The position numbers and the translations under genes are program-made. The notes beneath the pieces were generated by a model, which had not been told where the DNA came from, did no database searches, and saw nothing but the letters and a program-made list of their open reading frames with translations. A stretch of 36,059 bases of DNA, taken from Acidobacteriaceae bacterium. GTDB lineage: Bacteria > Acidobacteriota > Terriglobia > Terriglobales > Acidobacteriaceae. Of this stretch, positions 10,053-33,098 are shown piece after piece (positions within the stretch are counted from its first letter, which is position 1; every line of letters begins with the position of its first letter). The DNA is taken from positions 13,216 to 49,274 of the forward strand of contig PMAT01000059.1 of NCBI GenBank assembly GCA_003152695.1. Direction: 5' to 3'.

Positions 10053-10110
10053 CGTAAAACAAGGTTCGAAGGGGCGCATCTTTAGGTGCCCCGCCAAGCC
10101 TCGTATGTTT

Positions 10111-10150
10111 GTCATCCCGAACCGACTTTAGTCGGTGAGGGATCTGCTGT
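10111..10150 (+). repeat. Short dispersed repeat fragment with hairpin
   Basis: Begins GTCATCCCGA, contains the hairpin CCGACT-TT-AGTCGG (10122-10135) and ends near GAGGGATCTGCTG. It resembles the outer half of the larger palindromic element at 11046-11280. The same GTCATCCCGA start recurs near 13330. It lies in the leader of the ywiC-like gene, which supports the later start chosen for that gene. Confidence 0.5.
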
Positions 10151-10169
10151 TTCGCTTGGGAGTTTCACA

Positions 10170-11024
10170 ATGGGCGCTGTAGCCACAAACATCGCTTCGA
10201 CCCACAACGCAAGACACAAAGCGCTGGTGATTCCGCGCGAGCATGGCGCGTGGGGCATGCTGCTGGTGCCGCTCGCGACCGGTGCGGTGGCGTCCTTGCG
10301 CTCGAACGTGAACGGCGGCGGCACGCTTGCGCTCTTCATAGTTGCGGCGATGTCGCTCTTCTGGCTGCGCACGCCGGTCGAAAGTTGGCTGGGCGCGTCG
10401 CCCATCAAGGCACAAACCAAAGACGAGCGCGCCTTCGTGCTGAAGGTGATTGCCGGCATCGGCGTGCTGGCCGTCGTCAGCATATCGGCGCTGTTGTGGA
10501 ACGGACATTACCTCGGACTGCTGACCATCGGCGCGATTGCAGCTTCAGCTTTCGCGATGCAAGCCGGCGTCAAGAAGCTGGGGCGCAAAGGGAGGATGCC
10601 GGCCCAGATCATCGGGGCCATCGGCCTTACTTCCACTGCGGCGGGCGCCTATTACGTTGCTACCGGCAAACTCGACCGCATTGCGGTCGCGTTGTGGCTG
10701 GCCAACTGGCTGTTCGCGGCAGACCAAATTCATTTTGTGCAAGTGCGCATCCGCTCCAGCCGCGCCGCCAACCTGGACGAGAAGATGAAACAGGGATTGC
10801 CCTTCCTACTGGGTCAGGTAGGTCTCATCGGCGTAATCCTCGCCGCCTGCCGGTTCGGACTCTTCCCGGGTGCCATAGCGTTGGCGTTCGTGCCCGTGCT
10901 GCTTCGCGGGACTGTGTGGTTCGTCCGGCGACATCGTCCTCTCGATGTGCACAAGCTCGGCTTCAGCGAGCTGACTCACGCCGTGATCTTCGGTGCGTTG
11001 CTGTGCGCGTCGTTCTTCGTGTGA
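10170..11024 (+). CDS. YwiC-like polytopic membrane protein
   Basis: A 284-residue inner-membrane protein with about eight to nine hydrophobic helices. The signature PREHGAWGMLLVPL sits near the N-terminus, just before the first helix, as in the YwiC-like family. In Bacillus subtilis ywiC lies beside fnr and the nar genes. The biochemical role is unknown. The start was set at the ATG at 10170 because the longer frame (from a GTG at 10086) runs through a dispersed repeat and reads as non-protein-like sequence. It follows the radical SAM gene by 117 bp on the same strand and probably shares its anaerobic or heme-linked role. Confidence 0.8.
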   Translation: MGAVATNIASTHNARHKALVIPREHGAWGMLLVPLATGAVASLRSNVNGGGTLALFIVAAMSLFWLRTPVESWLGASPIKAQTKDERAFVLKVIAGIGVLAVVSISALLWNGHYLGLLTIGAIAASAFAMQAGVKKLGRKGRMPAQIIGAIGLTSTAAGAYYVATGKLDRIAVALWLANWLFAADQIHFVQVRIRSSRAANLDEKMKQGLPFLLGQVGLIGVILAACRFGLFPGAIALAFVPVLLRGTVWFVRRHRPLDVHKLGFSELTHAVIFGALLCASFFV

Positions 11025-11045
11025 TCCCAGGCCACTGCAGACGCG

Positions 11046-11280
11046 GCGCTAAACCTGCATTATTGATGCACAACAAAAAAACAATATTGTCATCCTGAGC
11101 GGAGCGCAGCGGAGTCGAAGGATCTGCGGTTGGCCGGCAGCTTCACGCCGTCTCCGTGAACACCCGCAGATCCTTCGACTGCGCGCCCGCCCGACTCGCA
11201 AACAAGCGAGTCGGAAAATCTTTGCGGGCGCTCCGCTCAGGATGACAGCCTTACGTTTATAAATAATGCAGGTTAAGCGC
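11046..11280. mobile_element. MITE-like palindromic element, about 235 bp
   Basis: Terminal inverted repeats of 19 bp (11046-11064 and 11262-11280) match at 18 positions. Nested inside are a perfect 20-bp inverted repeat (11088-11107 and 11228-11247), a perfect 16-bp pair (11114-11129 and 11164-11179) and a 9-bp hairpin (11191-11199 and 11206-11214). No transposase is encoded. The structure fits a non-autonomous miniature element or a large REP-type element able to fold into a long cruciform. It separates the ywiC-like gene from the PEBP gene. Confidence 0.7.
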
Positions 11281-11313
11281 TGCTCTACTCGTTATTGCGC
11301 GGCTTCCCTTACA

Positions 11314-11928
11314 ATGATGCCGATGACTTCGGCAAGCAACTCCTACGCACCGGTACTTCCGAAGCATCCCGTGGCAAGACTCGCCGCGCTGGCGCTAATG
11401 CTTGGCATCGTGGGCGGAGGCACGCTCACCGCGCAGTCACATTCCTCGGCAGGAGGTCGTTCGCCTATGACACTCGCGCTCAAGAGCGCCGCATTCGCGC
11501 CCGGTGCAGAGATTCCGAAGAAACATAGCTGCGAGGCCGCAGACGTTTCCCCGGCCCTGGAGTGGAGCGGGCCTCCAGCGCGCACCGTCAGCTTCGCGCT
11601 GATCATGGATGACCCAGACGCACCTGCCGGAACGTGGGTGCACTGGGTGTTGTGGAACCTGCCGGCGACCGCGCACGAACTTCCCGAGGCAGTCGCCAAG
11701 CAGGACCAGTTAGGCGACGGGACGCGGGAGGGACGCAACAGCTCCAGGAAGATCGGCTATAACGGACCGTGTCCGCCGCCGGGCAAGCCGCACCGCTATT
11801 TTTTCCGCTTGTATGCCCTGGATGAAAAACTCGAGCTCGCGCCCGGCGCCAGCAGCTCAGATCTTCAGGAGGCGATGAAGGGCCATGTCCTAGGCCAGGC
11901 GGAATACATGGGAACCTACCGGCGATAG
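11314..11928 (+). CDS. YbhB/YbcL-type phosphatidylethanolamine-binding (PEBP) protein, exported
   Basis: A member of the bacterial Raf-kinase-inhibitor-like (YbhB/YbcL) family. Key PEBP segments are DDPDAPAGTWVHWVLWN in the ligand pocket, and IGYNGPCPPPGKPHRYFF followed by the LYALD strand. A hydrophobic stretch (ARLAALALMLGIVGGG) near the N-terminus and the Ala-Gln after it suggest export to the periplasm or a membrane anchor. Function of this family is poorly defined; ligand binding is likely. The start was placed at the ATG at 11314, outside the palindromic element that covers an upstream in-frame ATG at 11266; 11317 and 11323 are also possible. Convergent with the next gene, 15 bp apart. 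Confidence 0.88.
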   Translation: MMPMTSASNSYAPVLPKHPVARLAALALMLGIVGGGTLTAQSHSSAGGRSPMTLALKSAAFAPGAEIPKKHSCEAADVSPALEWSGPPARTVSFALIMDDPDAPAGTWVHWVLWNLPATAHELPEAVAKQDQLGDGTREGRNSSRKIGYNGPCPPPGKPHRYFFRLYALDEKLELAPGASSSDLQEAMKGHVLGQAEYMGTYRR

Positions 11929-11943
11929 CGCGATTCCGCCGGT

Positions 11944-13308
11944 CTAGCAGCGCACAATCTTGGGCGAGTCGATCCCCTTCGTCGCGTTGCGGGTATCCAC
12001 CACCAGCTTCGACTCCCGCACAATGCGCGGATAGTCGTAGTCGCTGTGGTCGGTGACGATCATCACGCAGTCATACTGCTCCAGATTCTCCAGCGGCGAG
12101 CAGGTCATGTTCAGGGCATAGCGCCGTCCCTGGCCCACGGTCGGAAAGTAGGGGTCGTTGTAGCTGACGATGGCGCCGCGCTTTTGCAGCAGCTCGATAA
12201 TCGTGAGCGACGGCGACTCGCGCAGGTCGTCAATGTCGCGCTTATAGGAAAGTCCCAGCACCAGAATCTTCGCGCCGTTGAGCGCCTTCTTCTCCTTGTT
12301 CAGCGCATGGGCGACGGCTTCCACCGAGAAGTACGGCATATTGGTGTTGACTTCGCCGGCCAGCTCGATGAAGCGCGTGCGAAAGTCGAACTGCTTCGCC
12401 TTCCACGACAGATAAAACGGATCGATGGGAATGCAATGCCCGCCGAGTCCGGGGCCGGGATAAAACGCCTGGAAGCCGAACGGCTTGCTTTTGGCCGCGT
12501 CGATGACCTCCCAGATGTCGATGCCCATGCGCAGGCAGAGCATCTTCAGCTCGTTCACCATCGCGATATTCACGCAGCGGTAGATGTTCTCCAGCAGCTT
12601 GGTCATCTCCGCGGCGGCGGGCGTCGAGACCGGGACCGTGCGGTTGAAGATGCTGCCGTACAGCTTCGCTCCGAGTTCGCCGGCCAGCGGATCGAGCCCG
12701 CCGATGACCTTCGGAATATCGCGGCGCGCAACCGTGTCGTTGCCCGGATCTTCGCGTTCAGGAGAGAAGACCACGTGGAACAGATTGGCGCCTTCGACGC
12801 CAGCGCGAGCGGCCCGTAGCCCCTGCTTATTCAAGCGCTCGAGAATCGGCACCAGAATTTCTTCGGTGGTGCCGGGATAAGTCGTGCTCTCGAGGATGAC
12901 CAACTGGCCGGCGCGCAGATGCGGGGCAATCGATTCGGCCGTGGCAGTGATGTAGCTGAGATCGGGCTCGTGGTACTCGTCCAGCGGAGTGGGAACACAA
13001 ATGATGATGGCGTCCATGTGGCCGATGTTGGCGTAATCGGCGGTCGCGGTGAAGCCCTGGGCGCGCGCCGCCTGGATCTCGGTGGGCGCAATCCGGTAAA
13101 TGTAGGACCCGCCAGACTGGAGCACGTCGATCTTCTTCTTGTCGATGTCGAAGCCGGTCACGGGGAACTTCTGCTCGCTGAACAGCAGCGCCAGCGGCAG
13201 ACCGACGTAGCCCATTCCAATCACGCCAACTTTGGCGGTGCGGGATTCGATCTTGTGTTTGAGCACTTCAGACAATTCGGAGCTTGCAGCTTTCGATGGC
13301 ACCGACAT
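11944..13308 (-). CDS. UDP-N-acetylhexosamine 6-dehydrogenase (WbpA/TviB family)
   Basis: Oxidises C6 of a UDP-sugar to the uronic acid with two NAD+, for surface polysaccharide. It is 454 residues. The N-terminal Rossmann domain has GMGYVG at 31-36. Segments CVPTPLDE and ESTTYPGTTEE follow. The catalytic cysteine is C292 in GPGLGGHCIPIDP, and the C-terminal UDP-binding domain includes GLSYKRDIDDLRESP. These features point to the UDP-GlcNAc/GalNAc branch rather than UDP-glucose dehydrogenase. The ATG at 13308 is chosen because AAGGAG sits 6 nt upstream; a TTG two codons earlier overlaps the ribosome site. It is the last gene of the minus-strand lhgO - epimerase - dehydrogenase unit. Confidence 0.9.
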   Translation of the reverse strand: MSVPSKAASSELSEVLKHKIESRTAKVGVIGMGYVGLPLALLFSEQKFPVTGFDIDKKKIDVLQSGGSYIYRIAPTEIQAARAQGFTATADYANIGHMDAIIICVPTPLDEYHEPDLSYITATAESIAPHLRAGQLVILESTTYPGTTEEILVPILERLNKQGLRAARAGVEGANLFHVVFSPEREDPGNDTVARRDIPKVIGGLDPLAGELGAKLYGSIFNRTVPVSTPAAAEMTKLLENIYRCVNIAMVNELKMLCLRMGIDIWEVIDAAKSKPFGFQAFYPGPGLGGHCIPIDPFYLSWKAKQFDFRTRFIELAGEVNTNMPYFSVEAVAHALNKEKKALNGAKILVLGLSYKRDIDDLRESPSLTIIELLQKRGAIVSYNDPYFPTVGQGRRYALNMTCSPLENLEQYDCVMIVTDHSDYDYPRIVRESKLVVDTRNATKGIDSPKIVRC

Positions 13309-13352
13309 GGGCAACTCCTTTTCTTAATCCGTCATCCCGAGCCGGCAACCCT

Positions 13353-14321
13353 TCACTGGCTCGTGACTTTTGCCGTCACTGCGGCCAGGCTGCGATACCA
13401 GGCGACGGTGCGCCGCAAGCCTTCGCGGAAGTCCACCAGCGGCCGATAGCCCAGTTGCGCTTGGGCGCGCGCGATGTCGGCCAGCGAGTGTTTGACATCT
13501 CCCGTTCGCGCCGGTGCATATTCCACATCACCCGCGTACTCTGTCAATTCCTTCAGGATGGCGAATGTCTCATTCAGGCTGTAGCGATGGCCGGTGGCGA
13601 TGTTGAAGGTCTGGCCGGCGACCTGCGATTCGGCTTGCGTGGCGGCCAGGAGGTTGGCGGCAACCACGTTGTCGATATAGGTGAAGTCGCGCGACTGCTC
13701 GCCGTCGCCATAGATCGTGGGCTTCTCGCCTTGCAACATGCTGGTGATGAATTTCGCCAGTACCGCGGAATATTGCGAGTTCGCGTCCTGCCGCAGTCCG
13801 AAGATGTTGAAGTAGCGCAGGCTGACGGTTGGCAAACCATACACGCGATAAAACGAAGTCATATAAAGCTCGCCCGCCAGCTTGGACACGGCATAAGGCG
13901 AGATCGGATTGGCCGGCATGTCTTCCCGCTTGGGCATCGTCGGCGTGTCGCCGTAGGCGGAAGACGAAGCGGCATAAACTACTCGTTTCACGCGGGCGTC
14001 GCGCGCGGCGATCAGCACGTTCAGCGTGCCGTCGATGTTGACCGCGTTGCTTCGCGCCGGATCTTCCAGCGATCGCGGCACCGAGGGAATGGCTGCCTGG
14101 TGCAGCACGTAGTCCACTCCCTGGCAGGCGGAATGCACGGCCTTCAGATCCAGCAGGTCGGCTTCGCGGAAATCAATTTGCCCCGCCACCTCTCGAATAT
14201 GCTCGCGCTTGCCGGTCTCGAAATTGTCGAAGCCACGCACGCGCTCGCCGCGTTCGAGCAGCCCGCGCACCAGGGCCGAGCCGATGAATCCGGCCGCGCC
14301 GGTCACCAAATATTGCGCCAT
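13353..14321 (-). CDS. UDP-N-acetylglucosamine 4-epimerase-like SDR (WbpP/TviC family)
   Basis: A 322-residue extended short-chain dehydrogenase that interconverts UDP-GlcNAc and UDP-GalNAc in characterised relatives. NAD-binding Gly motif GAAGFIG is at 8-14, and the catalytic Tyr/Lys are Y143 and K147 in SPYAVSK. The segments AAIPSVPRSLEDP and SSSAYGDTP are typical of WbpP and TviC. Paired with the neighbouring TviB/WbpA-type dehydrogenase, it would supply UDP-GalNAcA or a similar uronate, as in Vi antigen and O-antigen pathways. It begins 18 bp after lhgO and ends 44 bp before the dehydrogenase. Confidence 0.88.
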   Translation of the reverse strand: MAQYLVTGAAGFIGSALVRGLLERGERVRGFDNFETGKREHIREVAGQIDFREADLLDLKAVHSACQGVDYVLHQAAIPSVPRSLEDPARSNAVNIDGTLNVLIAARDARVKRVVYAASSSAYGDTPTMPKREDMPANPISPYAVSKLAGELYMTSFYRVYGLPTVSLRYFNIFGLRQDANSQYSAVLAKFITSMLQGEKPTIYGDGEQSRDFTYIDNVVAANLLAATQAESQVAGQTFNIATGHRYSLNETFAILKELTEYAGDVEYAPARTGDVKHSLADIARAQAQLGYRPLVDFREGLRRTVAWYRSLAAVTAKVTSQ

Positions 14322-14339
14322 AGCCTCAAGGTTAACACG

Positions 14340-15581
14340 CTAAAAGGTGACCGTCTCCGCGCTGCGGCGCGACAGGTCGAACCGTTTGGTCAGCATATCG
14401 GCAATTTCCTTGCCGATCTCCAGCGATGCCGTGGCCGCCGGGGACGGCACGTTGCAGACATGGATCATCCCTTGGCTGTGGACGAAGTGAAAATCGTCCA
14501 CCAGGTTGCCGCTGGTATCCACTGCCTGGGCCCGCACCCCAGAGCCGCCCTGGACCAGGTCGGATTCCATCAGCTCCGGCACCATTTTCTGCAACGACTT
14601 CACGAAGGCTGTCTTGACCCACGAGCGGTATTGTTCCGCCATTCCCATGCGCCAATATCTCCGCGCCATCTTGTAGAAGCCGGGAAATGACAGCATTTCC
14701 ACGGCCTCGCTGAGATCGGGCGAGGTGCCGGTGTATCCCTCGCGACGGAAGGCCAGCAAAGCATTGGGGCCAGCCTCGACGCTGCCATTGACGCGGCGCG
14801 TAAAGTGCACGCCGAGGAACGGAAAGCGCGGATCAGGAACCGGATAAATAAGCGCCTTTATCAGGTTGCGCCGCTCGGGTTTCACTTCGTAATACTCTCC
14901 GCGGAACGGGATGATTTCGAGGTCGGTCTGCACTCCCGCCATGCGCGTGATCGTATCGCTATACAGGCCGGCGCAATTGATCACGTATCGCGCCCTGAAA
15001 CTGCCGGCGCTGGTCTCCACGACATTGAAGTTCCCGTCTTGCCGCAGGCCGAGCACCTTGGCGCGAAACACGATCTCGCCTCCAGCTCTCTCGATCAACT
15101 CGGCGTATTTCTGCGCCACCACCGTGTAATCCACGATGCCGGTGGAGGGCACATCCAGCGCACTGGTCCCATCGCAATGAGGTTCGATCTCGCGAAACTG
15201 TTCGCGACTCAGCATTCGCAAACCGGGGACGCCATTGGCAATCCCGCGCTGATGCAGTTGCTCGAGCCGCGGAACTTCCTCGGGGCTGGTTGCGACCACG
15301 AGTTTGCCGCACTCTTCGAAAGGAACGCCATGCTGCTGGCAGAAGCGCTTCATGGACGCGGCCCCGGCGACGCAGTTGCGCGCCTTCAGCGACCCTGTCT
15401 TGTAGTAGAGGCCGGAGTGGATGACTCCGCTATTGTGTCCGGTCTGGTGAGCGGCCACGCGATCTTCCTTCTCCACCACGACCAGGTTCATGTCTGGAAA
15501 GCGAAGCGTGGTCTCCAGAGCTGTCGCCAGTCCGACAATCCCCGCGCCAATGATCAAGAGATCGGTTTCGTGGTCCGCCAT
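14340..15581 (-). CDS. lhgO: L-2-hydroxyglutarate oxidase/dehydrogenase (LhgO)
   Basis: A FAD enzyme of the DAO family that oxidises L-2-hydroxyglutarate to 2-oxoglutarate and passes electrons to the membrane quinone pool or oxygen. It is 413 residues, the usual length. The FAD-binding GAGIVG is at 12-17, followed by VVEKE. The LhgO signature HQTGHNSGVIHSGLYY lies in the first 65 residues. The C-terminus has GGSGVRAQAVD and HVCNVPSPAATASLEIG. The start is ATG at 15581 with AGGA about 5-6 nt upstream; a TTG 24 bases earlier is rejected. It heads a minus-strand unit with two nucleotide-sugar genes and is divergent from another SDR, an unexpected setting for this enzyme. Confidence 0.92.
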   Translation of the reverse strand: MADHETDLLIIGAGIVGLATALETTLRFPDMNLVVVEKEDRVAAHQTGHNSGVIHSGLYYKTGSLKARNCVAGAASMKRFCQQHGVPFEECGKLVVATSPEEVPRLEQLHQRGIANGVPGLRMLSREQFREIEPHCDGTSALDVPSTGIVDYTVVAQKYAELIERAGGEIVFRAKVLGLRQDGNFNVVETSAGSFRARYVINCAGLYSDTITRMAGVQTDLEIIPFRGEYYEVKPERRNLIKALIYPVPDPRFPFLGVHFTRRVNGSVEAGPNALLAFRREGYTGTSPDLSEAVEMLSFPGFYKMARRYWRMGMAEQYRSWVKTAFVKSLQKMVPELMESDLVQGGSGVRAQAVDTSGNLVDDFHFVHSQGMIHVCNVPSPAATASLEIGKEIADMLTKRFDLSRRSAETVTF

Positions 15582-15698: not shown

Positions 15699-16694
15699 AT
15701 GAAGGTGCTCATCACGGGCGGGGCTGGCTTCATCGGGTCGCACCTTGCCGAGCGACACCTCCACCTGGGCGATGAAGTCTGCATCGTTGACGACCTCTCC
15801 ACCGGCTCGATCGCCAATATTCAACATCTCAAGATTCATCCTGAATTTACCTACCACATTGACACGGTCACCAACACACGGTTGATGACCGAACTCGTGG
15901 ACCTCTGCGATGTCGTTTATCATCTGGCGGCTGCCGTCGGAGTGCGCTTGATTGTGGACAGTCCCGTGCGCACCATCGAGACCAACATTCGGGGCACCGA
16001 AATCATCCTTGGCCTGGCGGCGAAGAAACTGAAACGCGTGCTCATCACCTCGACGTCGGAGGTGTATGGCAAAGGCGACCGGCTCCCGTTTCGCGAAGAT
16101 GATGATCTGCTGATGGGGCCGCCCAACAAGGGCCGCTGGAGTTATGCCTGCTCGAAGGCCCTCGACGAATTTCTCGCCATCGCGTACTGGAAAGAGAGGC
16201 GAGTTCCAACGGTGATTGCTCGCCTGTTCAATACCGTAGGTCCGCGACAGACCGGCCGTTATGGCATGGTGGTCCCCAACCTGGTGGTGCAGGCCTTGAC
16301 CGGCAGCGACATCACTGTCTTCGGCGATGGCGCGCAAAGCCGTTGCTTCACCCACGTCAGCGATACGGTGGATGCGCTGGTCGGCATCATGGCCCATCCC
16401 GGCGCTAACGGCGAAGTCTATAACGTGGGCAGCGATCACGAAATCACTATCCTCGACTTGGCGACACGCATCAAACGCATGACCGGATCGGACTCGAAGA
16501 TTGTCTTCGTGCCGTACGGGAAGGCCTATGAGGAGGGCTTCGAGGATGTGCGGCGGCGGGTCCCCGACATCAGTAAGCTGGCTGAGCTCATCGGCTATCG
16601 TCCGCGCGTTTCCCTGGAAGAGACCCTGGAGAGCATCATCGCGGAGCAGCGCGCCCGTTTGCGGGAGCATGGAGTGGCCGTCGCTGCCCGCTAA
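15699..16694 (+). CDS. NAD-dependent nucleotide-sugar epimerase/dehydratase (extended SDR)
   Basis: A 331-residue extended SDR. The Gly motif GGAGFIG is at 7-13, DDLSTG follows the second strand, and the catalytic Tyr/Lys are Y149 and K153 in YACSK. FGDGAQSRCFTHVSDTVDAL is the usual sugar-nucleotide segment. RWSYACSK resembles UDP-glucuronate-type enzymes (ArnA dehydrogenase, UXS), but the exact substrate cannot be read; UDP-glucose or UDP-glucuronate 4-epimerase are alternatives. The start at 15699 has TAGGGG 5-6 nt upstream; the much longer frame upstream is a shadow of lhgO. It is followed 57 bp later by the UXS gene. Confidence 0.85.
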   Translation: MKVLITGGAGFIGSHLAERHLHLGDEVCIVDDLSTGSIANIQHLKIHPEFTYHIDTVTNTRLMTELVDLCDVVYHLAAAVGVRLIVDSPVRTIETNIRGTEIILGLAAKKLKRVLITSTSEVYGKGDRLPFREDDDLLMGPPNKGRWSYACSKALDEFLAIAYWKERRVPTVIARLFNTVGPRQTGRYGMVVPNLVVQALTGSDITVFGDGAQSRCFTHVSDTVDALVGIMAHPGANGEVYNVGSDHEITILDLATRIKRMTGSDSKIVFVPYGKAYEEGFEDVRRRVPDISKLAELIGYRPRVSLEETLESIIAEQRARLREHGVAVAAR

Positions 16695-16751
16695 AACCCA
16701 ATTCGCAGCCAACTATTCTCGGTCCCCGTATTTCATCGAGGAATCGCAATC

Positions 16752-17693
16752 ATGCATGTGCTGGTGACCGGCGGTGCAGGTTTTCTCGGTTCGCATTTGT
16801 GCGATGCCCTGCTGGCGGAGGGCCACTCCGTGGTCTGCGCCGACAATTTATTGACCGGACGGATGGAGAACCTCGCGCATCTGCAGCACGAGCCCCGGTT
16901 CAAGTTTCTCGAGCAGGATGTCAGCCGGCCGTTCGATGCCGGCAAGGTTGACTATATTTTCCACTTCGCGTCGCCTGCCAGCCCGGTGGATTATCTCGAA
17001 CACGCCATCGAAACCTTGCAAGTCGGCTCCCTCGGTTCACTGAACTGCCTAGAGCTGGCGCAGAAATACGGCGCCAGGTTTCTATTGGCTTCCACCTCGG
17101 AGTGTTATGGCGATCCCTTGGAGCATCCGCAAAAAGAGACCTACTGGGGGCACGTGAATCCCGTCGGCCCGCGATCGGTGTATGACGAATCCAAGCGCTT
17201 TGCCGAAGCCGCCACCATGGCCTACTATCGCCACCGCCGGGTTGACACTCGCATTGTTCGCATCTTCAATACCTATGGTCCGCGGCTGCAGATCAGCGAT
17301 GGGCGGGTGATTTCGAACTTCATGAAACAGGCGTTGCGCGGCGAAGCTCTCACGGTGTACGGCGATGGTTCCCAGACGCGCAGCTTTTGTTATGTGAGCG
17401 ACGAAGTGGCGGGAATTCTGGCGCTGTCGAAGTCGGACGAACATGAGCCGACCAACATCGGCAATCCCGTCGAGTTCACAATCCTGGAGTGCGCGGAGGC
17501 GGTGCTGGAAGTGACGGGGTCGAGCAGCAAGCTGCGATTTGAGCCGCTCCCGCAGGATGATCCTCGGCAGCGCCGGCCCGATATCAGCAAAGCCAAGCAC
17601 CTGCTGGGATGGGAGCCAACCATCGATCTGCGAAGCGGCCTACGCCTGTCTCTGGATTACTTCAAGTCGGCGGTGCAGGCGCGCCTTAGCTGA
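16752..17693 (+). CDS. UDP-glucuronic acid decarboxylase-like SDR (UDP-xylose synthase family)
   Basis: Converts UDP-glucuronate to UDP-xylose, a donor for surface glycans. It is 313 residues. Motifs are GGAGFLG (7-13), [29 protein letters not shown] with the catalytic-region E117, and Y144/K148 in [15 protein letters not shown] and [16 protein letters not shown] complete the UXS signature, which is close to full. A GAGGAA ribosome site precedes the ATG. Its last 8 bases overlap the 3' end of the convergent MFS gene. It probably works with the upstream SDR in one pathway. Confidence 0.9.
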
Positions 17694-18939
17694 TAGCCGA
17701 CGGCTGAAGGCTCACGGCTCCCTTGCCGCTGCTGACAAGCGCCAAAACCATAGCCAACCCAGCAACCGCCATCAGCAGGAATACGCAGGCAGGCCAGCCG
17801 CCGGCGACCCACGCCCAGCCTGTGACAGTCGCTCCCAAACCGCCGCCAATGTAATAAAACGTCACATACAATCCCGCGGCTGAAGACCGCGCTCGGTCGG
17901 CGACGATCCCGGTTTGCACCGTGCCCACAGCCTGATAGATGAAGACGCCGGACGACGCCAGCGCCAGTCCCGCAACAATGACGGGCAGTGACTGCAACAG
18001 GGTCAGCAGCAATCCCGCTATCGTCAAGCAAACAGCAACCACCGAGGTCAGCCGGAGCCCGTAGCGGTCAAGGCAACGGCCCGACAGTGGTGTCACAATG
18101 AACCCCAGCAGGTACACGAAGAAAATGCTGCCCAGTTGTTCCGAGTTCAGACGATACGGCGGAGCGGCAAGATAGAAGTTGGCGTACGTGAATGCGCCGA
18201 CCAGGCAGAACAGCGCCGAAGATCCCATTCCGAAGACCACGAGTAGCCGTGGATTCCGCAGGTGCTGCCAGCCCTCAGAGATGGAATGCGCAATACTGGG
18301 GGCGCGGGCAAAGTTCTTCGCCAGCGGCAGAGAACGCTGGACCAGGATCGCCCCCGCCAAATTCACCAGCCCGATCGCAACGAAGGCCTCGCGCCACGCA
18401 AAATTGTGGGCGACCACACCGGAGATGTACCGCCCCAGAAATCCGCCCAGCACCGTCCCCGAAACGTACGCCGACATGGCCTTGCCCACGTGCCGTCGCG
18501 GGAATTCCTCATTGATGTACGCCATGATGACGACAATCACGCCGGGCGCGAACACTCCTTGCATGAATCGCCAAAAGACAAGTTGATGCAGGGTGTGCGA
18601 GGTGGCCGCCAGCAGCGTAGGAACGGTGAGCGCATAGAGCGAAGGCACGATCACCTTCTTGCGGCCGATGGATTCGGCCAGCAGGCCGATGAAGGGCGCG
18701 GTCAGCGCCATCGCCAGGATGGTGGCGCTCACCGTCAGCGACACCGCAATTTCCGAGGCGTGGAAGATCTGCTGGAGGTACGGAAGCAGCGGCTGCGTAT
18801 CATACACGTTTAAGAACGTGCACATCCCCGCCAGCATGCAGGCGACGATGACCACCCGCGGCGGCGAGCCACTTGTTTCGACACTGGAACCTGGATTGGG
18901 TGAGGTGACATCCATCGTAAAAGAGCGCGAGAGGCGCAT
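17686..18939 (-). CDS. MFS transporter, YnfM/AraJ-like
   Basis: A 417-residue membrane transporter with about 12 hydrophobic helices, the length of E. coli YnfM. The loop between helices 2 and 3 carries the MFS signature [11 protein letters not shown], and [12 protein letters not shown] follows in helix 4. The set recalls the YnfM/sugar-efflux branch (DHA1); the substrate is unknown. The N-terminus before the first helix is about 28 residues; a start at codon 9 (18915) is also possible, since neither ATG has a clear ribosome site. Overlaps the UXS gene tail to tail by 8 bp, so transcription of the two may interfere. Confidence 0.88.
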
Positions 18940-26451: not shown

Positions 26452-29400
26452 CTACGCCTCCTTCATGGGAAGCTTCCGCGCGGGATCTGTGATTGCATCG
26501 ATTTTAACGGCATAGCTTGAACGCGCAGTGATGTCCGCATCGGTGATCAGGTGAACGTCGAGCAGGCCTTCCGTCCGACACCCGGTCCGCAGGAAGTTGA
26601 TTTCGCTGAGGCAACGGCTCCAGCCTTCCAACCAGAGCAGCAATTCTCTCTTCTGGTCTGCTGTGCCCTGTAAGTGCAACAGCAGATCGATGTCGCTATC
26701 CGGACCTGCGGTTGCGTTCTTCGTGCTGCCGATGAGGTAGAACGCCTTGACACCGAACAACTGCGGATCGACTTGGGCCGCGATCCTCTGCGCCATCCGA
26801 AACCGCCAACGCCAGTGTTCCTCGCCGGTACGATCAACAACCTCGATGTCCGATTCAGCTTGTCCCTCGCGTCGTAAGGGGGGGGAAAGGTAAGCCACCG
26901 CCCGGTCCGATTCCGCGTTCATCAGCACTCGCAAGATCAGGCCGTCGCTCTCCTTAGGGACATCGATTACGCGGAGCGTGTCGGACAGGTGAGCAAATTC
27001 TGGAAGCAGTTCCACGAGTACGCTGGGTGCACCGCGCAGAAACTCCTCCTTAAATGCTGTCTGGGGGTCATCCGGATAAAGCGGCAGATAACGAATCGAC
27101 GCTTCCACCAGGTCTTGAAAAAAATGGGTGCCGAAGGAGAGGTCGGGCAGGTAGTTTCCCCGCTGCCGGGCGACTTCGATCAACATGGCAGTGTTGTTGA
27201 TGTCGGAGTACGTGACCGGAACGCCAAGCTTGATGTCCCCACGGCTTCCCCAGCGTCCCGGACCGATCAAGATAAACTGCCGCTTGGGCAACAACTTGTT
27301 CAGTCGTCCAACCGCGCGTCCAACATCGCGCATATCGGCCTGGTCCGAAAGTTGGCTGTAGCCCTCCAGGTCCACATACACGATGTGTGTGATCTCCGGC
27401 ACCTTTCCATTGGAGACGAAACGGTTTGCCGAAAATATCATCTTGTCCGTCGGCAGATTCTGCGGGATCGAAACCGGGACCGCATCGCCGCTGTAACTCT
27501 GCGGACGACACTGCAGCAGGTAGAAGTCCTCGCCATCGTAGGCGAACTCAATGTCTACCGGCGTGCCCAGGTTGGCTTCCAGCAGCGTCAACAGCTCACG
27601 GATGCGCGCTACGAACGGCGTCTTGCGGATCAGCCCTTCGAAGCTGAAAACCACGTCCCGCATGCTGAAGTCCGGGATCGGTCCGACGAGCTGCTCAATG
27701 CGGTCATGCTCGATGATCGACACAAAATTGCGAATCTGCGGGTAGTTGGCGCCGCAATAACGGAGCAGCTCCAGGGAGTCCACGGTCTCGAAAGCATTGG
27801 TCTCAAGGTTGATCACATCGACGCGCTTAGGCGAGTACTTGAGCACCTCTTCCACGGTCACGTTGACGCGGAGGTTGGGTTGTCCTGGAGCGATCAACAC
27901 CGGATAGTCGTCGTTGACGCGGTCAACCGCGCGCGTTCCCAGGCCGGGCACCAGGCGGACTAATCCGTCACCGCGCCTGATTCGGGAGGACCAACGGAAC
28001 TCGTTGTTGCTGAATGCCACTCCCGAACACGCCGGCAGAAAATACTTGCCGACCTTCTGTCCTACGACTTCCTGGATCATGATGCCCATTTCTTCATGAA
28101 CATCCAGAAGGCCTCGTTCCGCACGATACTCGGTGGGATCGGGTCCGAAGATAGAGGCATACACTTCGGCGACAGCGTCCATCAGCGCGGCGAGGCGCTC
28201 TTCTCTCGTGCCCTGATTACCTAGAAACAGGCTCTTATACTTGCCGGAAAATGCCGATCCGGCGCGGTCTTCGAGAAGACTCGAGCTGCGCACGATCAAA
28301 GGACGCTCACCCAGCTCATCCAGGGCCAGCGAAAGTCCCTTAGCTAGCTCCGAGGGGAACGATGAACTCTTGAAAAGCGAAACCAGATGCGGGTATTCCT
28401 GCCGCACCTGGTCGATCTCCATGTACTTCCAGTTGAGTACGTCCTCCAACTCGTTGTGATGGACGAAGTTCAAAATCCAGTCCGAGGTGATGTACCAAGT
28501 GCATGGCGTCTTCACCTGACGTGCCTGCGTACTCGCCTCCGGGACCTTCTCGATGATCTTCTTGGCTAGGAAAAGTCCGGCGCTCTTGCCTCCGAGCTTT
28601 CCATGACAACCCGGGGGGAAGATGATCCTCCCCAGCAGGTCGTAAAAGTCTTTGACCTCGATGAAGTTCTTGGCGATGTTTATGAACTCTAGGTTCTCGG
28701 AGAAGAACCGCCGGATCAGCGATACACGCAGACCTTTTTGCGTCGAAAGCGAAAGCTCGCTCTCTTCAATTGCGGCGTGCTGATATCGCTCGATCGCTTC
28801 GATTACTTCTCCCAGAGAGGTGGCCAGATTCTCCAGGACGCGCACCAGGAAGCTACATTTCTCTTCCTTGATCCAGGTGGTAACACAGCTCAGGATTTCG
28901 CTTTCGCTCAAGTGCCGGCTGGCGATGCCAAACGCCTCGGCGGTTACGTCGACCGATTTATCGGTAACGTTGCGGCGCAGCGGCCGATTCTCATCCTCTG
29001 TGCCCGCAAGGTCTGCCGTAACCGGGGCAATGCCGCGAAGCAGCAGTTCTTTGGCCTCGTGGACCCCGCACCAGCTCAGGTGATTGATCAGCTTGCGCGA
29101 AATTCGCCGCAGCAGGACGGGGTCGGTATCGCGCAGAAATTCGAGTACAACTTGCCATTCCCCTTTATCACTCGCCAAGCCGCCGGCGGCCGCCGACAGC
29201 CCCTCAAATGCAGCTTTCAACCGCCGTTGCATTACATGGTTAGCAATGCGGTCGGCGATGGTTTCGATTAGTTTCCGCTCCTCTTTGAGAAACGGTCCCT
29301 CGTCCGACTTGGGCATTGGCGCGCGATACGAGACCTCTACGTTGCCCACGATTTCGCCCTGCACGACGATGTTGGCGCGTTGTATGAACTGGGTGGGCAG

Positions 29401-29628
29401 GAAATCGGGCGGCTGAGTTACCTGGTCCTCGAAAATGATCCGCGCCTGGCAGTCGTGCGGGTACTGCCAGCCCGGCGGCAGTACGGCGATCATCGCACGA
29501 AAGATCTCCTCCAGCGAAAGATCGGGCCGATTCAGAAGCTCATCCACCTTGTAGAGGCAATTCAATTCCTTGGCGCGCTCCTGCAACTCACGAAGGATTA
29601 CGCCGACTTGGACTTCGTCTTTGATCAT
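26452..29628 (-). CDS. GAF-like/PPDK_N (ATP-grasp)/nucleotidyltransferase fusion protein
   Basis: A 1058-residue cytoplasmic protein of unknown function. Residues 1-140 resemble GAF-like input domains found before histidine kinases. A helical segment (about 155-320) follows. The PEP-synthase/PPDK N-terminal ATP-grasp domain spans about 340-715, with GKLGGKSAG (343-351), R447 in VRSSS, FSG (460-462) and the E694/Q706/R708 set in the last strands. GRWGS is at 791-795. The end carries a minimal nucleotidyltransferase: G967-S968, D979 and D981, then D1024. No phosphohistidine or PEP/pyruvate barrel domain is present, so it is not PEP synthase. ATG at 29628 overlaps the upstream TGA (ATGA). A longer frame is rejected. 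Confidence 0.88.
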   Translation of the reverse strand: MIKDEVQVGVILRELQERAKELNCLYKVDELLNRPDLSLEEIFRAMIAVLPPGWQYPHDCQARIIFEDQVTQPPDFLPTQFIQRANIVVQGEIVGNVEVSYRAPMPKSDEGPFLKEERKLIETIADRIANHVMQRRLKAAFEGLSAAAGGLASDKGEWQVVLEFLRDTDPVLLRRISRKLINHLSWCGVHEAKELLLRGIAPVTADLAGTEDENRPLRRNVTDKSVDVTAEAFGIASRHLSESEILSCVTTWIKEEKCSFLVRVLENLATSLGEVIEAIERYQHAAIEESELSLSTQKGLRVSLIRRFFSENLEFINIAKNFIEVKDFYDLLGRIIFPPGCHGKLGGKSAGLFLAKKIIEKVPEASTQARQVKTPCTWYITSDWILNFVHHNELEDVLNWKYMEIDQVRQEYPHLVSLFKSSSFPSELAKGLSLALDELGERPLIVRSSSLLEDRAGSAFSGKYKSLFLGNQGTREERLAALMDAVAEVYASIFGPDPTEYRAERGLLDVHEEMGIMIQEVVGQKVGKYFLPACSGVAFSNNEFRWSSRIRRGDGLVRLVPGLGTRAVDRVNDDYPVLIAPGQPNLRVNVTVEEVLKYSPKRVDVINLETNAFETVDSLELLRYCGANYPQIRNFVSIIEHDRIEQLVGPIPDFSMRDVVFSFEGLIRKTPFVARIRELLTLLEANLGTPVDIEFAYDGEDFYLLQCRPQSYSGDAVPVSIPQNLPTDKMIFSANRFVSNGKVPEITHIVYVDLEGYSQLSDQADMRDVGRAVGRLNKLLPKRQFILIGPGRWGSRGDIKLGVPVTYSDINNTAMLIEVARQRGNYLPDLSFGTHFFQDLVEASIRYLPLYPDDPQTAFKEEFLRGAPSVLVELLPEFAHLSDTLRVIDVPKESDGLILRVLMNAESDRAVAYLSPPLRREGQAESDIEVVDRTGEEHWRWRFRMAQRIAAQVDPQLFGVKAFYLIGSTKNATAGPDSDIDLLLHLQGTADQKRELLLWLEGWSRCLSEINFLRTGCRTEGLLDVHLITDADITARSSYAVKIDAITDPARKLPMKEA

Positions 29629-31412
29629 TTTTCTTTTCCGCTGGCTTGCGCGGATTCGCCCGACAGAATAACGCCGCGCCCATTGCGCCCATCGACACGA
29701 GTCGTCAACGCAGCCTGCGAGCGTACGTGACGAACAAATTCGGTTTCCTGCACCATCGGCTGGCGGTTCAGCCACGGCCAATCAATGACAAAGCGTCCAT
29801 CGTGCCGCACCATGAAGTAACTCGCGCGAAAGCTCGACAGATTATGGAAGAAATGGGAACCCTGGCTTAGCTCGACGTTCATCTCCGGTAGTGTAGCCTC
29901 AACGATCACTCGCGCTCCCGAGATCTGGCTCCACACAACCGGAATCCCCAGCGAGGGATGGGAGCTGCCCCAGCGGCCAAAACCGATGAGCAAGAACGGC
30001 CGGTGCTGTTCCGAGAGCTGCCGATTGATGACATCCAATTGTTGTGCGATCGCAGGAGTTTGCATTACAGAGAAGTTTTCCGGCCGAACGAATACGATGT
30101 CATGGATATCGTCAGTGACGCCGTTACCCATCACCATCTCGGACGCGACGATTGCGTGCGGATCGGCGAGGTCCTCGACTGTTACTTCCACGCTCTGTTC
30201 GGACACGACCATGGGACGGACCTGAAGAAATCCCAGCCGCGCCCGCAGCGCTTCATCCCGATCTGCCCGAATGGTCACTGCAAATTCGATCTCGACGTTG
30301 GCGCCCATCGTTTCGTCGGCTGCCTTGAGCAGCGTCTTGATTACTCCGTTGAGCGAAAACTGCTCCCACACCAGGAGCGGCGCGAAGTCGAGGATACGGG
30401 GCCCATTTGTGCCTAAGCCGGGAACAACGCGATCGCGCGACGGGTCAAATGTCGACGCCAGAAAACGCAGCACGCCATCAGCCTCAGCCTCTTTCAGACC
30501 AGCCTTCACCAAATACTCGGTCTCGCTGACTGGATCGTACGCGGGTGGCTTGCCCATGTTGACGGCCCAGAAGTCCGTCTGCGTGCCGCGCAGCATTTCC
30601 GCCACTGAACCGAACGGTGGCGGCTTTTTCGGGTAGGCGGGCGAAAATGTCCAGGATATTCCGCCGTCCACAATCGTCTTGCCCAGACCGAGCGCCAGGC
30701 TCGCCACACCTTCCTCCGGCCGGGCCGGCCCGGCCGGATAGAAGTTGTAGGAGCGCGCCACGCCAGAGATGTCAGGATAAAAGCGATCACCGTGGCGCTC
30801 TCCCACAACTTCCTGGAGAATGACGGCCATCTTCTCTTCGCTGGGATCGTGACCCGTAGTCTTGATGTAATCGCGTGCTTCCCGGAAATACGTGGAAGCA
30901 TAAACAAACTTGATGGCCTCTGTCAGTAGCCGGAAACGGGTGTCTTGATCGAACTGATTGTTCGGGATCATTTTCGTCCCGTAAACCCCGGCAAATGGCC
31001 GGTCGAGCGCGTCCTCCAGCAGGCTGGACGAACGGACGGCCAACGGTGTCTTGACTTGCGCGATCAGCGCCCGCAGATCTCCGAGTAGCTCAACCGGAAG
31101 GTCGGCCTGTTGGAAGGCATGTCCGATTCGGTCATCTGGCAACTCTTCGACGGGCAATTCTCCCAGCCGGTTGCGTGCGATGAACTCGTCAAAGCAGTCC
31201 GTCGCAATCACGGCCATGGTGGGGACATTGACATCAATATCCGGGAAGGCGGAAGCATCGATCGTTTCTTCCAGCAGGTTTTTGGCAAGGACCAATCCGC
31301 TGGCCTTCCCGCCCAAGGTGCCCGTTCCGATCCGGGTGAAGCGAAAGGTGCCATCCCAGAAGTGCCGGTCGAACGCGGGAAGGTCCGCAACCACGGTCTT
31401 AAGATCGGTCAT
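29625..31412 (-). CDS. PPDK_N-domain (ATP-grasp) protein with C-terminal GRWGS segment
   Basis: A 595-residue cytoplasmic paralog of the next protein, without its sensor and nucleotidyltransferase ends. The ATP-grasp domain has GTLGGKASGLVLA (31-43), R127 in VRSSS, FAGVYGT (140-146) and E374/E376 with Q397 and R399. GRWGS is at 479-483, followed by the SxGSHFF element. As in its paralog, the swivel and catalytic barrel domains of PEP synthase are missing. The start is the ATG at 31412, with GGGGAGG about 5 nt upstream; a 44-codon longer frame is rejected. It lies 76 bp after gdh and overlaps the next gene by 4 bp. Confidence 0.88.
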   Translation of the reverse strand: MTDLKTVVADLPAFDRHFWDGTFRFTRIGTGTLGGKASGLVLAKNLLEETIDASAFPDIDVNVPTMAVIATDCFDEFIARNRLGELPVEELPDDRIGHAFQQADLPVELLGDLRALIAQVKTPLAVRSSSLLEDALDRPFAGVYGTKMIPNNQFDQDTRFRLLTEAIKFVYASTYFREARDYIKTTGHDPSEEKMAVILQEVVGERHGDRFYPDISGVARSYNFYPAGPARPEEGVASLALGLGKTIVDGGISWTFSPAYPKKPPPFGSVAEMLRGTQTDFWAVNMGKPPAYDPVSETEYLVKAGLKEAEADGVLRFLASTFDPSRDRVVPGLGTNGPRILDFAPLLVWEQFSLNGVIKTLLKAADETMGANVEIEFAVTIRADRDEALRARLGFLQVRPMVVSEQSVEVTVEDLADPHAIVASEMVMGNGVTDDIHDIVFVRPENFSVMQTPAIAQQLDVINRQLSEQHRPFLLIGFGRWGSSHPSLGIPVVWSQISGARVIVEATLPEMNVELSQGSHFFHNLSSFRASYFMVRHDGRFVIDWPWLNRQPMVQETEFVRHVRSQAALTTRVDGRNGRGVILSGESAQASGKEK

Positions 31413-31488: not shown

Positions 31489-32853
31489 CTACACCCAGCC
31501 GCGGTCGTGGCAAGCCTTGGCCACACGACCAATGGCAATCGCATAGGCTGCGTCTCGCATCGACAGCTTCTCGCGGCGCGCCAAATCTGAAACCGCGAAG
31601 TACGCCGAGGTCATCTTGAGGTCGAGTTTTCCGAGGACCTCGTCCTTTTCCCAGAAGTAATTCATGTTGCTTTGCACCTGCTCGAAATAGCTGCAGGTCA
31701 CGCCGCCCGCATTGGCCAGAAAATCGGGGATGAGCAGGATGCCGCGTTCTTTGATCTGCGCATCGGCTTCCGGTGTCGTCGGACCGTTGGCTCCTTCAGC
31801 AATGATCCGCACTCGCCGGCTGATCTTTTCGACATTGTCCCCAGTAATTTGGTTCTCCATTGCCGCCGGAATCAGGATCTCCACATCCTGTTCGAGCCAT
31901 GCGTCGCCGGGCAACATTTCGTATCCCAGGGCCTTTGCCTTCTGCTTGTTGATCCCACCAAAACGATCGGTGATTGACAGAACTTGGTTGAGATCGATTC
32001 CGTCAAGCTTGCGATAGGTGTAGGAGTACTGGTCTTCTTGGTCCCAGCACGAGACAGCAATCACTTTGCCTCCCAGCCGCTGGTAAAGTTCGATGGCGTA
32101 CTGGGCCACGTTGCCGAAACCTTGGACGCTGGCGGTGGTGTCTTCGGGGCGAATGCCCAACTGTTTAAGAGCTTCCCGCAGGGTGAAGACCACACCGTAG
32201 CCTGTCGCCTCGGTGCGGCCAAGCGATCCCCCCATTCCGACGGGTTTGCCAGTGATAAATCCGGGATAACGTCCGCCATGGATTTGTTCGAACTCGTCGA
32301 GTATCCACAGCATGTGCTGCGCGTTGGTCATGACATCGGGTGCCGGCACATCGGAGAGCGGTCCCACGTTCCTTGCTATCTGGCGCACCCAACCCCGGCA
32401 GATCTGCTCCTGCTCACGCAAACTCAGGTTGTGGGGATCGCATATGACACCGCCCTTGGCCCCTCCCAACGGGATATCCACGACCGCGCACTTCCAAGTC
32501 ATCCACATCGACAGCGCACGGACCGTGTCGATGGTCTCTTGCGGATGGAATCGAATACCGCCCTTGCCGGGGCCGCGCGCATCGTTGTGCTGGACGCGGA
32601 AACCGCGGAAAATCTTCACCGCGCCGTCGTCCATTCGCACGGGGATGGCAAAGTGGAACTCCCGTAAGGGATAACGCAGAAGGTCGCACGTGGCCGGATC
32701 CAGGCCCAGATATTCGGCTACCTTGTCGAATTGCGCTTGTGCGATCTGAAACGAATTGAATGCCTTGGTAGACTTCTTCGGCGATTGTCCGGGAGCCGAT
32801 TGGCGCACTTCCTTTGCGATCTCGATCGGTCCACTCACTGCGCTCTCCGACAT
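31489..32853 (-). CDS. gdhA: Glutamate dehydrogenase (Glu/Leu/Phe/Val dehydrogenase family)
   Basis: Interconverts glutamate and 2-oxoglutarate plus ammonium with NAD(P). It is 454 residues. The substrate-binding segment GPGKGGIRFHP has K97, and K121 follows. The catalytic K133 lies in PLGGAKGGVICDP. The dinucleotide-binding Gly motif is VQGFGNVAQ. The N-terminus (about 1-30) is extended and Ser/Lys-rich. The start at 32853 has AAGGAG 7 nt upstream; a longer frame lacks this. It is the first gene of the unit with two PPDK_N proteins. Coenzyme choice cannot be read. Confidence 0.92.
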   Translation of the reverse strand: MSESAVSGPIEIAKEVRQSAPGQSPKKSTKAFNSFQIAQAQFDKVAEYLGLDPATCDLLRYPLREFHFAIPVRMDDGAVKIFRGFRVQHNDARGPGKGGIRFHPQETIDTVRALSMWMTWKCAVVDIPLGGAKGGVICDPHNLSLREQEQICRGWVRQIARNVGPLSDVPAPDVMTNAQHMLWILDEFEQIHGGRYPGFITGKPVGMGGSLGRTEATGYGVVFTLREALKQLGIRPEDTTASVQGFGNVAQYAIELYQRLGGKVIAVSCWDQEDQYSYTYRKLDGIDLNQVLSITDRFGGINKQKAKALGYEMLPGDAWLEQDVEILIPAAMENQITGDNVEKISRRVRIIAEGANGPTTPEADAQIKERGILLIPDFLANAGGVTCSYFEQVQSNMNYFWEKDEVLGKLDLKMTSAYFAVSDLARREKLSMRDAAYAIAIGRVAKACHDRGWV

Positions 32854-33098
32854 GGTTTTCTCCTTAAATTCTTGATAGATAGTCGACCCTCCATGTTCCA
32901 TTAATCGGGTCCCGTTGAACAGTGACTGTCCTCACAGGGTAGGGTGACAGCTGAATCCTGCTCTTATTAAAATAGCCTGCGGGAAACCTTAGGAGCCTGG
33001 TTCCCCCTCGCTTTAGTTTGTTAGCATGCGGTTCACCTCGACAGGCTCTTCTCGACCGTTTGATCCAACCGCCATCTCGCTACTACGGGCGGCGCACT

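Follow-up and report, generated by a model that had tools for sequence, protein, structure and literature searches.

A glutamate dehydrogenase-linked protein with GAF, PPDK-type ATP-grasp and nucleotidyltransferase domains in Acidobacteriaceae: a candidate regulatory module

What is the role of a protein that combines a sensor-like N-terminus, an ATP-grasp core and a nucleotidyltransferase (NTase) domain in one polypeptide? This question is raised by gene B, which we analysed within a 36,059-nt stretch of contig PMAT01000059.1 from an Acidobacteriaceae bacterium (assembly GCA_003152695.1, positions 13,216 to 49,274 of the forward strand; hereafter the window). As an answer in which our confidence is evenly balanced, we propose that B is the sensor and NTase subunit of a regulatory module linked to glutamate dehydrogenase (GDH), encoded in the order GDH > A > B and in some loci accompanied by a metallophosphoesterase (MPE), which module would combine PPDK-type autophosphorylation with a nucleotidylation layer. 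The domains, residues, operon and co-occurrence of this module are reported as observed, and from them we infer each catalytic step, which nucleotide and target are involved and in which direction control is exerted. The parts come from known families; a description of the domain arrangement or of the link to GDH and MPE was not found in the open-access PMC literature searched.

Domain architecture of gene B

Gene B (26452 to 29628, on the minus strand like every window feature below unless stated otherwise) is a real open reading frame (ORF) and encodes 1058 amino acids. Mechanically, a TTG-started frame extends to 29781; the ATG at 29628 overlaps the stop codon of the upstream gene A as ATGA (29625 to 29628). 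B is present in four of nine genomes of the window's genus, and its orthologues in three other genomes of this genus share 88-91% identity, one of them being split over two contig pieces. Based on the ORF, Pfam and an AlphaFold2 model built from 56 sequences (mean pLDDT 82.9, pTM 0.66), the protein is arranged as GAF domain, helical linker, PPDK_N ATP-grasp, swivel-like domain and NTase. The linker (residues 155-340; 28609 to 29166) is defined by the secondary structure of the model and has no assigned family. The original prediction had read B as a three-domain protein, and all three domains were recovered; what it missed was a fourth domain at residues 722-922, the operon and the MPE.

For the N-terminus, where a GAF-like domain had been suggested at residues 1-140, the fold was confirmed and the family match was not: Pfam GAF stays below its cut-off (E=0.17; 12.8 bits, cut-off 22.4), and model residues 10-145 (29194 to 29601) superpose on the GAF domain 3cit_A with Z 12.8 and a root-mean-square deviation of 2.4 over 126 residues. 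Further matches include the GAF domains of NifA (8jrc_A, Z 11.6) and ptsP (3trc, Z 10.6), and many GAF-containing structures fall within Z 9.5-12.8. Residues 13-141 also match other Acidobacteriota ORFs of about 370-1160 amino acids (e.g. in genomes G162, G093, G101 and G064).

The ATP-grasp predicted at about 340-715 is firmly supported, with Pfam PPDK_N (PF01326) covering residues 344-723 (27460 to 28599) at 194.9 bits against a cut-off of 27 (E=2.8e-57), and alignment and structure comparison agree. Since K348, R447, E453, D454, E512, D692, E694, Q706 and R708 do not vary in any of the 56 B rows, the ATP chemistry is probably intact. From residue 305 on, the top structural matches of the model are RPH, phosphoenolpyruvate (PEP) synthase and PPDK. 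The best of them is RPH (5hv3, 5hv1; Z 26.6), in which an ATP-grasp domain is combined with a beta/beta/alpha swivel phosphohistidine domain that serves a non-pyruvate substrate domain (PMC4844700). RPH differs from B in having three domains in total, including a drug-binding domain and a C-terminal His domain, and neither a GAF nor an NTase domain. PEP synthase (2ols) and PPDK (1dik) share the ATP-grasp family with B, their alignments ending at B residues 916-918; however, B lacks their pyruvate/PEP barrel and their GGxTSH motif. A Pfam scan of B (E<=1) returned neither the PEP-utilizers His domain (PF00391) nor a PEP/pyruvate barrel nor any other recognised substrate domain, and the missing His-domain profile match and barrel rule out that B is itself a PEP synthase or PPDK.

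Residues 722-922 (26863 to 27465) lie where PEP synthase and PPDK have their phosphohistidine swivel domain, and they have no Pfam match. Modelled alone by AlphaFold2 from 97 A- and B-type sequences, this swivel-like domain reached pLDDT 92.6 and pTM 0.91. His835 (codon 27124 to 27126), the candidate phospho-acceptor, is invariant in 56 of 56 B rows and in all 97 A- and B-type rows, where it is one of ten invariant columns (N777, G791, R792, G794, G802, E818, S831, H835, F836 and F837). In the domain model it is the first residue of helix 114-121, which lies between two strands; this strand-helix-strand order we take to be that around the catalytic His of PPDK. The whole-model alignments extend beyond His835 both for PEP synthase 2ols (model 305-916, chain 13-467) and for PPDK 1dik (model 305-918, chain 12-513), these ranges giving the first and last aligned residue only. 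Against a phosphohistidine domain, and with it against our proposal, speaks that the PPDK rows 5jvl_A, 2r82, 5jvn, 1vbg and 5jvj_A already end at model residue 711-712, that hhalign found no profile similarity to 42 PF00391-type His domains and that Foldseek with the domain alone gave no significant match (best E=0.078). In VIA, the domain alone reached at best Z 5.8 (2ioj, DRTGG), followed by an LD-carboxypeptidase (5.7) and by TRiC apical and PA-type domains (about 4-5), where Z values below 8 may reflect merely a common arrangement and PPDK chains were not among the rows shown. These four kinds of domain presumably lie in or near the broad swivelling beta/beta/alpha class to which the PPDK His domain belongs. 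Because the alignments of 2ols and 1dik and the position of the His fit, yet other PPDK rows end earlier, neither a profile nor a significant Foldseek match was obtained and Z does not exceed 5.8, the models make 722-922 likely, though not proved, to be a diverged phosphohistidine-type domain.

The same conserved residues could serve metabolism if A and B were a dikinase-like enzyme pair whose substrate, phosphorylated or ligated by them, is a small molecule from glutamate metabolism that GDH supplies or uses. Such a role would be in line with the small-molecule enzymes among the PPDK_N families (PEP synthase, RPH, the prodigiosin ligase PigC) and with the strict conservation of ATP-grasp and swivel-like residues. 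We nevertheless regard it as unlikely: B has no recognised substrate domain, sensor-type fusions are found in both proteins (the GAF fold in B and a receiver domain in two long A-type proteins, where one match exceeds the Pfam cut-off and the other falls short of it), and the NTase/MPE layer described below recurs across many lineages.

Linkage of B to GDH

In the window, B is preceded by gene A (29625 to 31412 from the likely start M45, the ORF reaching 31544), a PPDK_N paralogue with the same swivel-like domain, and by a GDH gene of the ELFV family (31489 to 32901). To place this arrangement among relatives, we kept the best 80 loci of a scan of genome contigs, 50 of which have at least 4.5 kb of upstream sequence. 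In 43 of these 50, a GDH gene in the same orientation precedes B at a distance of up to 4.5 kb (it is missing there in L071, L092, L093, L098, L103, L105 and L106); with any position in the locus allowed, the number rises to 47. An A paralogue is located upstream of B in 32. GDH, A, B and an MPE occur together in L056 and L032, and a cultivable carrier of B is Oligosphaera ethanolica DSM 24202 (L066). The distance between A and B has a median of -4 nt over 36 loci, i.e. the 4-nt overlap also present in the window.

Across a sample of 199 Acidobacteriota genomes, one GDH subfamily (at least 66% identity) occurs in 39 and B (at least 45%) likewise in 39, with both in 37. The identity cut-offs were chosen visually where the lists show gaps, and the GDH counted for G100 is a 261-residue partial match. 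Many Acidobacteriota genomes without B contain other GDH types (43-53% identity). Full-length B was found in 55 of the best 80 loci, spread over many phyla and archaea: the record titles of the loci, nearly all metagenome-assembled genomes, name Acidobacteria, Calditrichota, Ignavibacteria, Zixibacteria, Spirochaetes, Bacteroidetes, Planctomycetota, Chloroflexota, Bacillota and Thermoplasmata, among others. A plasmid search gave no record covering 80% of B (0 of 6).

A third PPDK_N protein of 995 amino acids, whose match to Response_reg narrowly misses the Pfam cut-off and whose match to DUF5752 narrowly exceeds it, was seen at locus L173 (G000:C141). It lies two genes from an NADP-type GDH gene, with a Ser/Thr kinase gene in between (9549-12536, 12681-15380 and 16470-17870).

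The NTase domain and its coupling to an MPE

The C-terminal domain (residues 934-1056; 26461 to 26829) is assigned by Pfam, the model and Foldseek to the minimal NTases. On full-length B, NTP_transf_2 matches residues 956-997 with 23.8 bits (cut-off 21), and the same family is found at E<=0.1 in 55 of 55 NTase segments, the window's included, three degenerate rows (L051, L074, L075) having been excluded beforehand from this alignment (A4). The motif reads G967-S968-x10-D979-I-D981 (26686 to 26730), with D1024 (codon 26557 to 26559), the third carboxylate, within 'GLLDVH'; these positions are those originally predicted. In the model, GS follows directly on strand 960-966, DxD opens strand 980-986 and D1024 lies inside strand 1023-1028. 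Because these positions fit, the AlphaFold2 model shows neither a missing NTase fold nor misplaced metal ligands. Foldseek with the whole model retrieved the MNT nucleotidyltransferases 8xeh_E and 7bxo_E (probability 0.98-0.99, E 0.03-0.05). The full G, S, D, D, D set is kept in 47 of 56 rows of alignment A2, whose rows were chosen as full-length; at the position of D1024, 54 rows have D, one has E and one is missing.

Within the window's genus, dN/dS of the NTase is 0.05-0.10 in six pairwise comparisons, by which measure the domain is under purifying selection. This, together with full-length B across phyla, led us to reject a chance fusion without joint function, a hardly credible explanation even though many relatives have no NTase or have it in degenerate or split form. 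One lineage (L020, L021, L075, L051 and L097) keeps B with an NTase lacking GS and DxD (DE...P.K/R); since both are lost, the domain may have another role there.

GlnE and GlnD are NTases that modify a protein of nitrogen metabolism under signal control, and B had been compared with them. To our knowledge, ATP-grasp and swivel-like domains are not part of these enzymes. The comparison did not hold at the level of families: GlnE- or GlnD-specific families are absent from the Pfam matches of B (E<=1) and from the 22 Pfam families matching the 55 NTase segments (E<=0.1), and the HD and ACT domains of GlnD are absent from the Pfam scan of B, NTP_transf_2 being shared with GlnD and thus non-discriminating. 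An identity of B with GlnE or GlnD is ruled out on this basis, and the likeness consists in the idea of a signal-controlled NTase. The solved sequences nearest to the NTase profile are instead minimal, kanamycin and aminoglycoside NTases and RNA uridylyltransferases. MntA-type minimal NTases (8xeh_E, 7bxo, 2rff) resemble the domain in fold and GS...DxD motif, and a mono-AMPylated HEPN toxin together with its MNT antitoxin appears in the title of entry 7ae9. In contrast to them, the NTase of B is fused to a GDH-linked dikinase-like protein and has GDH, A and MPE as partners, not a HEPN toxin; the NCBIfam equivalog of the MntA type VII antitoxin scores 19.0 bits on B, below its threshold of 60. 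In PADLOC, weak matches only were obtained, the NTase (B 956-991) to PDC-S09 and the MPE of L056 to PDC-S10, which are neighbouring-numbered candidate defence entries.

A partner gene that goes with the NTase encodes a calcineurin-like MPE (Pfam Metallophos, 24.5 bits, cut-off 21.5), often found after B and convergent to it in 23 of 28 loci of its cluster. It tracks the NTase and not the rest of the module. In the 199 Acidobacteriota genomes, MPE (E<=1e-20) occurs in 15, all of them among the 23 with the NTase (E<=1e-5), and in none of the 17 having B without NTase. A second class, that of G219 (which contains locus L040 and has Ignavibacteria in its title), repeats this pattern, the 40 MPE-bearing genomes out of 197 all lying within the 50 that have the NTase. 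At the level of loci, scored where at least 1 kb of downstream sequence was available (76 loci), an MPE is adjacent in 30 of 52 with an intact GS-DxD motif vs 1 of 24 with an absent or altered NTase, this one (L073) having an assembly gap. L092, with GT for GS, was scored as altered here and in the tree counts, GT being accepted as intact in the second class. Six of 100 loci without a clean B ORF (L010, L017, L026, L029, L054 and L083) were excluded from the adjacency, tree and B-residue counts. As Fisher tests of the adjacency and co-occurrence counts ignore relatedness, we corrected for it by comparing pairs on a B-core tree of 74 rows (excluding L073 for its assembly gap in the NTase and L082, with its NTase in another ORF). 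The 14 independent pairs divide on average into 8.3 where the MPE accompanies the NTase and 5.7 without a difference, and no pair shows the opposite (sign test, median p 0.008). Three genomes of a single genus (G030, G043, G068) have NTase and MPE as a separate convergent pair, with GDH > A > B lacking GAF and NTase located elsewhere.

The substrate of NTase and MPE could also be RNA or a small nucleotide instead of a protein. RNA uridylyltransferases and aminoglycoside NTases do match the NTase profile, and the MPE is assigned solely to the very broad Metallophos family; yet the Pfam scan of B contains no RNA-binding or aminoglycoside-binding family, and the fusion of the NTase to a GDH-linked, sensor-bearing protein would favour a protein target, which makes an RNA or small-nucleotide substrate improbable in our view.

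A proposed control of GDH

The unchanged ATP-grasp residues and three precedents, namely RPH, VadK and the AMPylation that inactivates GDH in mammalian cells (PMC12375108), led us to propose that GDH is regulated by a phosphohistidine core to which an NTase/MPE layer is added. VadK (Rv1127c) is a mycobacterial histidine kinase derived from PPDK; it phosphorylates itself on a His, and regulation of metabolic enzymes through binding has been proposed for it (PMC13400623). Like B, it is portrayed as a truncated PPDK relative with an ATP-binding domain and no metabolic barrel; unlike B, it is about 50 kDa in size, is described with ATP-binding and His domains only and belongs to the methylcitrate cycle and not to GDH. 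B has GAF and NTase domains besides, and its swivel-like domain lacks sequence similarity to the PF00391-type His domains tested.

In the proposed mechanism, the ATP-grasp domains of A and B would carry out the half reaction of PPDK and PEP synthase, in which a phosphate of ATP is transferred to His835 of the swivel-like domain. Since there is no PEP/pyruvate barrel, the phosphohistidine would itself be the signal or be handed to a protein partner, and this transfer may be gated by the GAF domain in B or by the receiver domain found in long A proteins. Within the module, the NTase of B would act as writer, putting a nucleotide on one of the proteins (GDH or the A/B pair being the likeliest), and in loci that have an MPE, this enzyme would act as eraser by taking the nucleotide off. 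As an outcome, the flux through glutamate, 2-oxoglutarate and ammonia would be controlled. The earlier suggestion that nitrogen control involves a signalled transfer of a nucleotide or phosphate to a protein is partly supported, as it agrees with the GDH operon, the co-occurrence with one GDH subfamily and the coupling of NTase and MPE.

Besides the results on the swivel-like domain, several further observations have to be set against this proposal. A precedes B in no more than the 32 of 50 loci counted above. The NTase is dispensable, being absent or altered in 24 of 76 loci (one of them with the assembly gap, and L082 with the NTase in another ORF), and D1024 is replaced by N or S in three of 17 NTase-bearing relatives (alignment A1), all three retaining the MPE. 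Conversely, 22 of 52 loci with an intact NTase have no MPE nearby. In the second class, the profile alignment gave an intact NTase motif in 40 of 40 MPE-bearing genomes and also in nine of ten NTase genomes without MPE; the expectation of broken NTases in the latter was thus not borne out (1 of 10). Because such loci and genomes combine an intact NTase with the lack of an MPE, the presumed eraser is not required. The window's own genome is one in which an MPE was not found. Elsewhere in its genus, the MPE is whole in G206 and reduced to remnants of 57 residues in G204 (L181) and 38 residues in G201 (L182), both beside B, so that it seems to be decaying. With no MPE and an NTase still under purifying selection, the window would therefore represent a module that has lost its presumed eraser.

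A target of the NTase did not emerge from residue comparisons either. Between NTase-intact and NTase-lost loci, no convincing target appeared among the GDH residues (41 vs 12 loci), and none of the B residues clearly tracks the NTase (64 vs 23 loci). A and B could equally be modified as GDH. Taken further, the NTase/MPE layer might modify the A/B dikinase itself, with GDH regulated only indirectly, which we consider possible, if on the doubtful side. In this it would resemble plant PPDK, which is switched by a modification near its catalytic His. The fusion of the NTase to B in most scored loci, its repeated loss while the rest of B stays and the lack of any GDH residue tracking it would agree with such a target; that no B residue tracks it cleanly would not. 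Nor does the stand-alone, distant NTase of L172 (G120:C44:46000-56000, 5133-5615; 26% identity to that of B), which belongs to a genome without other B match and is located about 4 kb from two GDH genes on the same contig and about 3 kb from a gene with a glutamate synthase domain.

Returning to GDH as the regulated enzyme, the widest form of our proposal is a phylum-spanning control of GDH by a PPDK-derived phosphohistidine relay (A/B) and an NTase/MPE switch, as a counterpart of GlnE/GlnD acting on glutamine synthetase; we put it forward tentatively, since we rate it as rather unlikely in this full extent. Covalent control of the GlnE/GlnD type is the textbook case for glutamine synthetase and not for prokaryotic GDH. 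Carbon and nitrogen metabolism meet centrally at GDH. If the proposal is true, two layers would act on this one metabolic node: a phosphohistidine relay whose swivel domain is divergent and which receives sensor inputs, and a switch by nucleotidylation. Beside VadK, B would then be another metabolic dikinase turned regulator, with a swivel-like domain that has no Pfam match.

Two minor observations concern B and its core. A 324-aa ORF runs antisense to B (26989-27963, plus strand) and is probably a shadow of the coding strand. A plasmid of Parabacteroides distasonis (NZ_OY725790.1, 95157-96809) encodes a 27% identical relative of the core, annotated as PEP/pyruvate-binding domain-containing protein, and the core therefore reaches Bacteroidota.

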